NCBI RefSeq assembly: GCF_017565425.1
Contig: NZ_JAGEMK010000003.1
Span: 248,001 to 312,000, forward strand
Reading direction: 5' to 3'
DNA: 64,000 nt
DNA from: Actinotalea soli
GTDB taxonomy: Bacteria > Actinomycetota > Actinomycetes > Actinomycetales > Cellulomonadaceae
Below are positions 9,021 through 11,667 of this stretch, piece after piece. Position 1 is the first letter of the stretch, and every line of letters begins with the position of its first letter. A model generated the notes under the pieces. It did no database searches. It saw only the letters and a program-made list of their open reading frames with translations, and was not told the DNA's origin. A program made the position numbers and the translations under genes.

Positions 9021-9509
9021 ATGGACACTACCGTCGACCCGACCGCCTTCATCGACCTCGTAGACGAGCAGGTGCGCAGCGGGTGGCTGCCCGGGGCAGT
9101 CCTCGGGCTGCGGCACGCCGGACGTACGCACCTCCACGCCGTCGGGTCACGGGACCTGGGTGGGCCGGAGGCCATGGCCGTGGACACCACGTTCCGGATC
9201 TCCTCGCTCACCAAACCGTTGGCCGCCACCCTCACGCTGGCCCTCGTCGCTGACGGGACCCTGGGTGCCGCCCCCTTCCTCGAGCCGGGGTGCTCCTGGG
9301 GACTGGGCGTGGGGGTCGACCTCGAGGCCGGAACGGGCGGCCGGGCACCGGGGCGGTGGGGCTGGATCGGGGGGACGGGCAGCGCGGCGTACGTCGACCC
9401 GACCCGTGATCTCGTCGTGGTGCTCCTCACGGGGCGGGGTCTCGCCGGACCCCACGACCGCTCCGCCGCCGTCCTCGAGGCCGCGGCTGCCGCGGTGCGC
9501 CCGCGATGA
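9021..9509 (+). pseudogene. Serine beta-lactamase-fold hydrolase with a large in-frame internal deletion
   Basis: A 162-residue open frame that joins the two ends of a class C beta-lactamase/esterase-type protein (normally about 350-400 residues). Residues 1-82 are a normal N-terminus with the nucleophile motif Ser62-Leu-Thr-Lys65 in RISSLTKPL. Residues 85-160 are a normal C-terminus (WGLGVGVD, then GWIGGTGSAAYVDP and VVVLLTGR). The middle, which should hold the YxN motif and the lid, is absent, so the frame joins at about base 9265. The result cannot be catalytic in the usual way. The sequence is otherwise intact and keeps the reading frame, so the deletion is recent or is an assembly error. 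Confidence 0.75.
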
Positions 9510-9513
9510 CCGC

Positions 9514-9546
9514 CAGCGAGCGGTAGCCGTCAGCGAGCGGTAGCCG
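9514..9546. repeat. Short tandem duplication at the end of a convergent gene pair
   Basis: CAGCGAGCGGTAGCCG occurs at 9514-9529 and again at 9531-9546, separated by one T. The stop codon of the Ddn-like gene (9530-9532) falls at the junction. Confidence 0.8.
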
Positions 9547-9937
9547 CGGCCCGCGCTGACCTGACCGGCAGCTCGACGAAGTCCCGGCACCGGACCGGCC
9601 ATCGCAGCGCGACCCGCACCGGTCGCGGGACGCGCGCCAGGCCCGCGCTCGTGCCGAGGTCCGACGGGGGGCCGAGGGTCAGGATCTCCCCACGCATGAG
9701 CATCCGCCCACCTCCTGCGGCCCGCAGGTTGGCCAACCACTCGACGTCGGGTCCGTAGGTCAGGGCGATCGTCACCGTGCCGCCCGCGCGGAAGGCGAGG
9801 AGAGGGGTGTGGCGGACCGTCCCCGAGCGACGCCCGACGTGCTCGAGGTCGACCAACGGGCCGTGGCCGGTGATCCGCAGCATCAGGGGGTTGAGCGCAC
9901 GGCGGTTGATCCGGGTGATGCGCTGGGCGATCGGCAC
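9530..9937 (-). CDS. Ddn-like F420H2-dependent nitroreductase/quinone reductase family protein
   Basis: A 135-residue split-beta-barrel protein of the deazaflavin-dependent nitroreductase family (DUF385). The family pattern is visible: an N-terminal helix (NRRALNPLMLRITG), then HVGRRSGTVRHTPLL, where the GRRSG loop contacts the F420 phosphate tail, and PDVEWLANLRAAGG. Members use F420H2 to reduce quinones or nitro compounds at the membrane face. The presence of cofD and cofC near 31-33 kb shows that this organism can make F420, which supports the assignment. It is transcribed towards the deleted beta-lactamase gene and away from the clpP locus. Confidence 0.85.
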   Translation of the reverse strand: MPIAQRITRINRRALNPLMLRITGHGPLVDLEHVGRRSGTVRHTPLLAFRAGGTVTIALTYGPDVEWLANLRAAGGGRMLMRGEILTLGPPSDLGTSAGLARVPRPVRVALRWPVRCRDFVELPVRSARAAATAR

Positions 9938-10005
9938 GAGGGCCTCCGGCGACTCGGGTAGGACCAGTGTGCCGCGGCCCGAGGACCTGCGCTGCCCTGG
10001 GCTGA

Positions 10006-10020
10006 TCCGCTGGCGGCAGC
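10006..10020. promoter_or_regulatory. PopR-type box upstream of the clpP pair
   Basis: The sequence TCCGCT-GGC-GGCAGC lies 42 bases before the first clpP start. It agrees at 9 of 12 arm positions with the palindrome TCTGCC-N3-GGCAGA known as the PopR activation site in Streptomyces. It also shares 14 of 16 bases (10004-10019) with the site in front of the popR-like gene at 11651-11666. Confidence 0.6.
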
Positions 10021-10061
10021 GCCACCGGTCCCCCGCGACGACGGCGGCTCAGGATCGAGGC

Positions 10062-10682
10062 ATGACCCAGCCACCGACCCCCCGCCCCCTGGACGACGAG
10101 CTCGCCGCCCGTCTCCTGCACCAACGCACCATCGTGCTGGGCACAGCCCTGGACGAGGCCTCGGGCAACCGGTTGTGCGCGCAGCTCCTGCTGCTCTCGG
10201 CCGAGGACCCGCGCCGCGACATCAACCTGTGGATCAACTCCCCTGGCGGCTCCGTGCCGGCGATGCTCGCGATCCACGACGTCATGCGCCTGATCCCGAA
10301 CGACGTCGCGACCCTCGCGATGGGGTGGGCCGCGAGCGCCGGCCAGTTCCTGCTCTCGGCCGGCACCCCGGGCAAGCGCTACGCCCTGACCCACTCCAGG
10401 GTGCTGCTGCACCAGGGCTCCTCAGGCATCGGGGGCACCGCGGCGGACATCGAGCTGCAGGCCGAGGACCTGCGCCACACCCGCGACACCGTGATCGGGC
10501 TCGTCGCGCAGCACACCGGGCAGCCGGTCGCGACGGTGCTCGCGGACTCGGCCCGGGACCGGTGGTTCACGGCCGAGGAGGCCCGGGAGTACGGGTTCGT
10601 CGACCACGTCCTCACCGAGCTCGGATCGGTCGCCCCGACGGGCACGGCCGGGCGCGCCCAGGCAGGAGGGTTCGCAGCATGA
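10062..10682 (+). CDS. clpP3: ATP-dependent Clp protease proteolytic subunit (ClpP3-like)
   Basis: A 206-residue serine peptidase of the ClpP family that forms the barrel chamber for Clp ATPases. The catalytic triad is complete and correctly spaced: Ser92 in MGWAASAGQ, His117 in LLHQGS and Asp166 in [11 protein letters not shown]. The oligomer-interface motif WINSPGGS is present. The ATG at 10062 was chosen because it sits just after a GAGG and the protein then has the normal ClpP length. The gene overlaps the next clpP by four bases (ATGA), so two non-identical subunits are made together. The pair is separate from the housekeeping clpP1P2, which in actinobacteria lies beside clpX and tig. 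I infer a conditional second ClpP system because a PopR-like gene and its boxes flank it. Confidence 0.9.
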
Positions 10683-11299
10683 GCCAGTACACGATCCCCT
10701 CCGTGGTGGAGCGCCGCGCAGGTGGGGGCGAGCGGGTGGTCGACGTGTTCAGCCGCCTGCTCTCCGAGCGCATCGTCTACCTGGGCACAGAGATCGACGA
10801 CGGCGTCGCGAACGTGCTCGTCGCGCAGCTGCTGCACCTGGAGTCGGAGAACCCCGACGCCCCCATCTCGCTCTACATCAACTCCCCCGGCGGCTCGGCC
10901 TCGGCGGCCCTGGCCGTCTACGACGCGATGCAGTACGTGCGACCGCCCGTCGCGACCACCTGCGTGGGGCAGGCCGCCTCCCCCGCGGCCCTGCTGCTTG
11001 CGGGCGGCGAACCCGGCCAGCGGGCGATCCTCTCCCACGGGCGCGTCGTGCTGCACCAGCCCTCGGCCGAGGGGCGCGGGACCCTCCCCGACCTCATCGT
11101 GGCGGCCGACGAGGTCGCCCGCCTGCGCGCCGAGCTCGAGGAGGTGCTGTCCCGGCACACGGGCAAGGGGGCGCTCACCATTCGCCAGGACACCGACCGC
11201 GACCTGGTGCTGACCGCCGAGCAGGCCGTCTCCTACGGGGTGGCCGACCTGGTGGTGCGGGGCCGCGCCCCCCGCCCGGGCACCGCCCTCGGGGGCTGA
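10679..11299 (+). CDS. clpP4: ATP-dependent Clp protease proteolytic subunit (ClpP4-like)
   Basis: A 206-residue ClpP, the second subunit of the tandem pair. The triad is Ser101 in GQAASPAA, His126 in VLHQPS and Asp175 in [12 protein letters not shown] proline follows the nucleophile where a methionine is usual, and two alanines follow that, so the active-site neighbourhood differs from typical ClpP. The N-terminus ([25 protein letters not shown]) and YINSPGGS are normal. It ends three bases before the convergent popR-like gene. In Streptomyces the clpP3-clpP4 operon is silent until PopR activates it. The same arrangement is suggested here by gene order and shared boxes. Confidence 0.9.
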
Positions 11300-11302
11300 G
11301 CC

Positions 11303-11611
11303 TCAGGCGGCCAGCAGCACGGGCCCGCGATCGCCGGCCGAGCGGCCCAGCTCCCGAGCGATCCCCCCGGCCAGGTCCACCAAGGTCATGCCCAGGGCCC
11401 GCGTGACGGCCCCGAGCACCTCCGAGGAGGCCTCTTTGCGCCCGCGCTCGACCTCCGAGAGGTACTGGGCCGAGACCTGGGCCGCCGCGGCGACGTCGAC
11501 CAGGCGCAGGCCGGCGTCCAGTCGTGCCTCGCGGAGCCGCCCTCCGATCGCGCGGCGCCAGGCGTCGTGCTCGCGGCGTCGAGGGGCCAAGGAGGTGACG
11601 GTGGCGCTCAT
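11303..11611 (-). CDS. popR: PopR/ClgR-type HTH activator of clpP genes
   Basis: A 102-residue XRE-type DNA-binding protein. The helix-turn-helix is at residues about 25-75, with AAAAQVSAQYLSEVERGRKEASSEVL, the signature shared by ClgR and PopR. The protein ends in Leu-Leu-Ala-Ala. In Streptomyces, C-terminal alanines of PopR are needed for its degradation by ClpP1P2, and the end also looks like the ssrA-tag terminus. The gene converges with the clpP pair with a three-base gap. A box matching the PopR site at 11 of 12 arm positions lies 42 bases upstream of its own start, which suggests autoregulation. It could also be called clgR-like. The PopR name rests on box, tail and location, not on a database comparison. 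Confidence 0.8.
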   Translation of the reverse strand: MSATVTSLAPRRREHDAWRRAIGGRLREARLDAGLRLVDVAAAAQVSAQYLSEVERGRKEASSEVLGAVTRALGMTLVDLAGGIARELGRSAGDRGPVLLAA

Positions 11612-11652
11612 GGGGCGACGCTAGCCCGCGGCCCCCCGGCTCGTCCGGTCGA

Positions 11653-11667
11653 TCTGCTGTCGGCAGA
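11653..11667. promoter_or_regulatory. PopR-type box upstream of the popR-like gene
   Basis: TCTGCT-GTC-GGCAGA matches TCTGCC-N3-GGCAGA at 11 of 12 arm positions. It lies 42 bases upstream of the popR-like start on the minus strand and about 110 bases before the divergent lacI-type gene. Confidence 0.7.

Follow-up and report, generated by a model that had tools for sequence, protein, structure and literature searches.

Two clpP genes and a convergent regulator gene at the locus

The window, which here means the whole 64-kb stretch of DNA that was analysed, comes from the 3.63-Mb genome of Actinotalea soli, a member of the Cellulomonadaceae (G000:C26:248001-312000). It carries two overlapping clpP genes and a small regulator gene, with candidate operators and promoter elements upstream of clpP3 and popR (Table 1). 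The regulator gene is convergent to clpP3-clpP4, and 3 bp separate its ORF from that of clpP4. The sequence-only reading had described two coupled clpP genes and a convergent small XRE regulator ending in Leu-Leu-Ala-Ala, which was confirmed by the coordinates, the 4-bp overlap and the terminal ...VLLAA.

Table 1. Genes, candidate operators and predicted promoter elements of the locus (window positions)
Feature	Position	Strand	Description
clpP3 tandem PopR operator (candidate)	9991..10020	+	two abutting 15-bp dyads, GCTGCCCTGGGCTGA and TCCGCTGGCGGCAGC
predicted -10 of clpP3, CAGGAT	10050..10055	+	29 bp past operator; no T at -12
clpP3	10062..10682	+	206 aa; Ser and His motifs present
clpP4	10679..11299	+	206 aa; overlaps clpP3 by 4 bp (ATGA)
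popR	11303..11611	-	102-aa XRE/ClgR-like regulator; C-terminus Leu-Leu-Ala-Ala (...VLLAA)
predicted -10 of popR, TAGCGT	11618..11623	-	29 bp past popR box; start codon 7 nt downstream
proposed popR self-operator	11653..11667	-	single perfect box TCTGCC-GAC-AGCAGA

A PF00574 search of the genome returned four matches, namely clpP3-clpP4 and the housekeeping pair at C26:94823-96120; that is, two extra clpP genes of the ClpP3 and ClpP4 type are present besides the housekeeping clpP1P2 pair, compared with five clpP genes in all in S. toyocaensis. The window ClpP3 fell within a 14-row P3 clade together with Streptomyces ClpP3 (100/99) and the window ClpP4 within a 13-row P4 clade together with Streptomyces ClpP4 (96/93), and both were placed apart from the housekeeping ClpP pair of the same genome. 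The ClpP3 proteins of Frankia and Micromonospora and the ClpP4 of Frankia lay outside these core clades.

Divergent from clpP3 is an F420H(2)-dependent quinone reductase-like gene (9530-9937, minus strand), whose PF04075 match is barely above the cut-off. Farther upstream, a 162-aa ORF (9021-9506, plus strand) looks internally shortened, since its match to PF00144, the beta-lactamase/serine-hydrolase family (model length 329), falls into two separate pieces. No tRNA genes or Rfam families were detected in the 64-kb window.

The regulator groups with PopR

In Streptomyces, PopR activates clpP3P4 and is degraded by ClpP1P2 with ClpX and, more slowly, with ClpC2, according to the available parts of PMC9765437 and PMC12607617; in vitro, ClpXP1P2 degrades both PopR and ClgR (PMC9765437, in part), and terminal alanines are described as the recognition site in the accessible text of PMC9775585. 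The S. lividans PopR-clpP3clpP4 system goes back to Viala et al. 2000 and Viala and Mazodier 2002, as cited in the portions of PMC9765437, PMC12607617 and PMC9775585 available to us.

The regulator in the window matches ClgR structures (3f51, E 4.2e-15), and we considered whether it is a ClgR. It scored 63 bits against the ClgR model, for which the cut-off is 170 bits, although this is not a clean test, as none of the matches to the curated ClgR model in 16 genomes reaches the cut-off. No PopR model was met either, which counts against the PopR reading. In a regulator tree of 58 rows and 96 columns, in which the bootstrap had not settled, the 42 PopR-labelled rows were a selection chosen for spread and not every row available. 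One starred side of a split (98/98) held 37 of these 42 rows with the window regulator and all 8 Streptomyces rows used, and all 15 ClgR rows were on the opposite side. Five PopR-labelled rows (four from Micromonospora, and L085) were found on the ClgR side, which also speaks against the assignment. Identification as ClgR was rejected on the basis of the below-cut-off score and the placement with Streptomyces PopR. In the recognition-helix region, SLG precedes YLSE in 12 of the 12 matched ClgR rows (15 tried), whereas it does so in none of the 40 matched PopR rows (42 tried).

The Ala-Ala end of the regulator is widely conserved: it was present in 42 of 44 loci with clpP nearby, the window included. 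By genus, 23 of 26 Streptomyces and 4 of 18 Micromonospora PopR proteins carried it. For ClgR, all 6 rows taken from Streptomyces (two), Planobispora, Frankia, Micromonospora and Nocardioides ended in Ala-Ala, compared with 0 of 7 rows from the family of the window and neither L224 (Microbacterium) nor L225. ClgR proteins of the window's family end in ...PVG, ...PIG, ...PTG or ...RAG.

The locus resembles the ClgR-clpP1P2 circuit in its paralogous XRE activator, itself a Clp substrate in Streptomyces, and in a dyad with five bases between half-sites. Unlike that circuit, it has a different half-site (GTTCGC-5N-GCG for ClgR in the accessible part of PMC9775585) and a different recognition-helix region, and the ClgR of this genome is encoded by a separate gene (L212, G000:C2:108527-108754) and ends in APVG, not AA. 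The best ClgR-type site before the housekeeping clpP1 has 2 mismatches; it says little, since there are 259 genome places per strand at ≤2 mismatches (reversed control, 87).

A tandem operator precedes clpP3

The sequence-only reading had placed one near-identical site 42 bases before each of clpP3 and the regulator gene. The 16-mers from 10004 and 11651 do agree at 14 of 16 positions, and the two gaps are equal, at 41 bases in the register of the 15-bp dyad. The clpP3 site is real as well, but it is not single: it is the proximal half of the tandem at 9991-10020, whose distal half had been missed.

The strict tandem form, TCTGCC-3N-GGCGAATCTGCC-3N-GGCAGA, is reviewed for S. lividans (PMC9775585, available part). 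In the window it is degenerate, with 4 of 24 specified positions off the strict tandem, and it belongs to the weaker tandems, which counts against it; the period is still exactly 15 bp, and the promoter spacing is the common one. The outer half-sites are GCTGC/GCAGC here, unlike those in Streptomyces. The gene order is shared by S. fungicidicus, whose tandem TCTGCCCGTGGCGAATCTGCCACGGGCAGA fits the S. lividans region as far as it is quoted in the available text of PMC9775585.

A genome search for TCTGCY-N3-RGCAGA showed that the popR box is special, with two exact matches in 3.63 Mb, and that the clpP3 half-site is not. This proximal half has 2 mismatches to the pattern, and 546 genome places per strand are found at ≤2 mismatches (1105 for a reversed control pattern); the half-site was therefore rejected as meaningful alone. 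Many equal matches in the genome, which had been named as evidence against the circuit, thus exist for the clpP3 half-site alone and not for the tandem or the self-box. The clpP3 site carries weight through its tandem form, conservation and promoter spacing. When the pattern was loosened to the window tandem, zero mismatches occurred in its own genome at this place only, the next match having 2. At ≤3 mismatches there were 9 and 6 matches compared with 23 and 27 for the reversed control, indicating no genome-wide excess of the tandem.

To place the operators among relatives, we used 48 loci from the best regulator matches in 99 genomes, plus the window; G024 and G048 contributed two loci each. 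Sequence upstream of clpP3 was present in 43 loci, counting the window; in 42 of them, none of 200 shuffles reached as few mismatches to the tandem as the best real match. The sole exception was L054, whose clpP3 sits at the end of the fetched stretch.

Strict tandems were also sought in the contigs of species genomes, in a scan not steered towards clpP, which yielded at least 120 stretches, 80 of which were examined. Among the matches listed, 72 of these 80 lay ≤300 bp upstream of a clpP3-like gene. They came from Streptomyces, Micromonospora, Cellulomonas, Oerskovia, Frankia, Nocardioides, Microbacterium, Planobispora, Planomonospora and Intrasporangium, so that, among the matches listed, the strict tandem precedes a clpP3-like gene in at least nine named genera besides Streptomyces. 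The other 8 listed comprised 5 non-actinobacterial and 3 actinobacterial tandems (L151, L155 and L163), the latter lying near the end of the available DNA, where the gene on that side is not visible. The strict tandems with no clpP3-like match near (L117, L119, L123, L159 and L161; source groups Omnitrophota, Edaphobacter, Verrucomicrobiota, Kiritimatiellae and Stahlbacteria) are perhaps chance palindromes. In a survey of the phylum for strict tandems at ≤1 mismatch, 8 of 296 genomes matched, and control matches numbered 1; this measures specificity and not prevalence, as it misses the window's own genome.

Weaker tandems with 4-5 mismatches precede clpP pairs in Embleya, Tsukamurella and Prescottella. 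In Nonomuraea gerenzanensis (L088), which has clpP3- and clpP4-like genes, neither a tandem within 7 mismatches nor a regulator match was found in 8.5 kb, which counts against the proposed circuit. Apparently three abutting dyads, the middle one weakest, lie before clpP3 in Embleya (L087, 3786-3830) and Tsukamurella (L089, 3915-3959).

Predicted -10 elements lie at a fixed distance from the operators

Promoters were collected behind operators with ≤5 (clpP3) or ≤2 (popR) mismatches. The 109 clpP3 promoters comprised 41 from relative loci and 68 from the strict-tandem scan (among the matches listed). Only L042 and L054 failed this filter among the 43 loci with sequence upstream of clpP3, and L091, L103, L110 and L125 were left out because their genomes were already among the relatives. 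Measured from the proximal box,.A...T occurred at offset 29 in 94 of the 109 promoters and at 28-30 in 108, and at other offsets it averaged 2.3% with a maximum of 12.8%; these counts are not independent events, since related sequences are counted many times. In Streptomyces, the 29-bp spacing to an A...T -10 element was present in 33 of 33 clpP3 promoters. The first -10 base was T in none of the 94 promoters with 29-bp spacing, T making up 11% of the stretch. No position of the -35 region (offsets 0-11 after the box) exceeded 0.54 bits. The window conforms to this arrangement, and the -10 spacing points to clpP3 as the gene to which the tandem in the quinone reductase/clpP3 gap is assigned.

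The spacing recurs at the regulator gene. Among regulator promoters with a -10 element at 28-30 bp, 15 of 19 begin with T. When the box had ≤1 mismatch (n=20),.A...T lay at 28-30 bp in 14 and TANNNT at 33-35 bp in 4. For boxes with exactly 2 mismatches (n=18), TANNNT was found at 33-35 bp in 9 and A...T at 28-30 bp in 5, which counts against the proposed self-box. In the window, the start codon follows 7 nt past the -10 element at clpP3 as it does at popR. On this geometry, the proximal box would lie at -56 to -42 and both transcripts are probably leaderless, unlike in the Streptomyces PopR system.

A box precedes popR

The sequence-only reading regarded the box before the regulator as an addition to the Streptomyces circuit. 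The box is real and shares the spacing of the clpP3 promoter, but it is not wholly an addition, because a degenerate dyad exists in Streptomyces. Besides 11653-11667, the only other exact match in the genome is at C26:232544; it was rejected as a further target because the surrounding ORF looks coding.

In the 44 loci with clpP nearby, the best box ≤300 bp upstream of the regulator had 0 mismatches in 9, 1 in 7, 2 in 15, 3 in 3 and 4 in 10, the count omitting L120, L140, L145 and L057, which had too little upstream DNA. Cumulatively, 9 were exact, 16 were within 1 mismatch and 31 within 2, compared with 1.2%, 2.3% and 8.5% of 1702 background segments (303 bp each) taken from these loci, in which the self-boxes themselves are still included (1.2%, 1.1%, 6.2%, 28%, 55% and 8.5% at 0 to 5 mismatches, respectively). 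A box within 2 mismatches was absent from 13 of the 44 loci, which counts against the self-box.

The distribution is uneven. Microbacterium had 1 mismatch in 2 of 2 loci and Planobispora 3 in 2 of 2; none within 2 mismatches was found in Micromonospora (0 of 18; 3 to 5 mismatches), Nocardioides (0 of 2; 4) or Intrasporangium (0 of 1; 4), likewise a point against it. In Streptomyces, 0 of 26 loci had a box with ≤1 mismatch and 2 of 26 had one with 2, no more than background. By eye, a conserved asymmetric dyad, T[TC]C[AC]C-N5-GCGGAACG, recurs in a constant position in most of the 26 Streptomyces popR genes; a strict expression recovers it in 16 of the 26. As this degenerate dyad stands at the same place in many Streptomyces popR genes, the perfect single box here, unlike the Streptomyces form, may be the strong version of something weak there.

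A LacI-type gene begins 108 bp past the regulator's box, and 546 genome places match the pattern at least as well as the clpP3 half-site alone, so we asked whether both sites are chance resemblances or a property of neighbouring genes. This is extremely unlikely: the conservation across genera, the tandem form and the fixed -10 spacing argue against chance, and the LacI-type gene was found in only 2 of the 48 relative loci searched (L038, 98% identity; L079, 40%, beyond the clpP genes), whereas the box recurs in many. The box was accordingly not assigned to the LacI-type neighbour.

A putative self-amplifying PopR circuit

The PopR-clpP3P4 system is already known, and here it lies outside Streptomyces, as the sequence-only reading had proposed; phylogeny, gene order, operator form and the conserved Ala-Ala end support that proposal. 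Like the S. lividans system, the locus has clpP3-clpP4 facing popR (an order checked in S. fungicidicus), a tandem operator and an Ala-Ala end; like the Streptomyces proteins, its regulator and ClpPs fall in the same clades, and it shares the 29-bp spacing to an A...T -10 element. The genes, their phylogeny, the operators, and the spacing and conservation of these operators are observations, and we consider it very likely that they constitute a PopR backup-protease circuit with a tandem at clpP3 and a self-box.

By analogy with Streptomyces, and considering the orthology, the operator and the Ala-Ala end, PopR would activate clpP3P4, be subject to proteolysis and serve a backup role. popR would be expressed at a basal level from its own promoter, and its product would normally be removed through the C-terminal Ala-Ala by ClpP1P2 with ClpX (slower with ClpC2). 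When the housekeeping Clp protease fails, PopR would accumulate, bind the clpP3 tandem at about -71 to -42 and recruit RNA polymerase to a promoter with no recognisable -35 and a weakened -10 lacking T at -12, so that a second ClpP core, ClpP3P4, would be made. At popR, whose -10 is a full TANNNT, PopR would also bind the single box (-56 to -42) and most likely raise popR further in a positive feedback. The difference between the -10 elements suggests basal activity for popR and little for clpP3. Since the box is real and matches the clpP3 promoter in spacing, the self-amplification put forward in the sequence-only reading is plausible; the equal 29-bp spacing at both promoters suggests self-activation, and on this geometry PopR may activate its own gene as a self-amplifying switch.

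The same circuit could instead use the self-box for autorepression or simple homeostasis, which we consider rather unlikely. The full TANNNT -10 of popR may fire without an activator, and a protein bound at the box could also hinder polymerase; against this, the 29 bp between box and -10 equal those at clpP3, a promoter that the homologue in S. lividans activates, and the box does not overlap the core promoter but precedes it. That popR is controlled mainly by ClgR, or jointly by the two paralogues at hybrid sites, with the box as a point of cross-talk between the housekeeping and backup systems, appears improbable. In L044, L063 and L078, the dyads of the popR promoters are mixed, ClgR-like on the left (TTCGC) and PopR-like on the right (GCAGA), a hint of cross-control, and many Streptomyces popR genes have a conserved TTCAC-N5-GCGGA-type dyad. 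The window box, however, matches the PopR dyad perfectly and contains no ClgR half, and the SLG difference separates the recognition-helix regions of the two regulators.

Returning to self-activation by PopR, a more far-reaching form can be advanced only tentatively. Outside Streptomyces, PopR could act as a bistable, all-or-none self-amplifying switch with two leaderless promoters of identical geometry and graded strength. Losing housekeeping Clp activity would then trip the cell into exchanging its protease core. In this tentative scheme, clpP3, with two boxes and a -10 without the -12 T, would be fully activator-dependent, and popR would have one box and a full -10. In Cellulomonadaceae, where 0 of 7 ClgR proteins examined end in Ala-Ala, ClgR would have been without this end from the start or have dropped it, and of the two paralogues PopR would be the one to carry this signal.

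In the literature searched, we found no account of a PopR self-operator or autoregulation, of the promoter grammar, or of the circuit outside Streptomyces; the original Viala papers may contain them. The results suggest that a regulatory loop studied in Streptomyces is a module of the actinobacteria whose promoter code can be read and could predict, in many genera, strains able to switch to a spare ClpP core, and the self-operator gives the concrete prediction of a bistable switch. This bears on ClpP-targeting antibiotics such as acyldepsipeptides: in the available part of PMC12607617, ClpP3P4 is reported to be ADEP-insensitive, and ADEP-resistant S. lividans to combine ClpP1 loss with ClpP3P4 expression.

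Variants of the module were also seen. In L074, L075, L078 and L080, one clpP of the P3 type was found beside popR, with a tandem operator, and in L093, L105, L108 and other Micromonospora loci a single clpP3-like gene has popR upstream on the same strand. In two genomes the PopR-clpP module occurs twice (L052 and L080 in G024; L053 and L071 in G048): one copy has clpP3-clpP4 and the other a lone clpP, and a separate tandem operator belongs to each.
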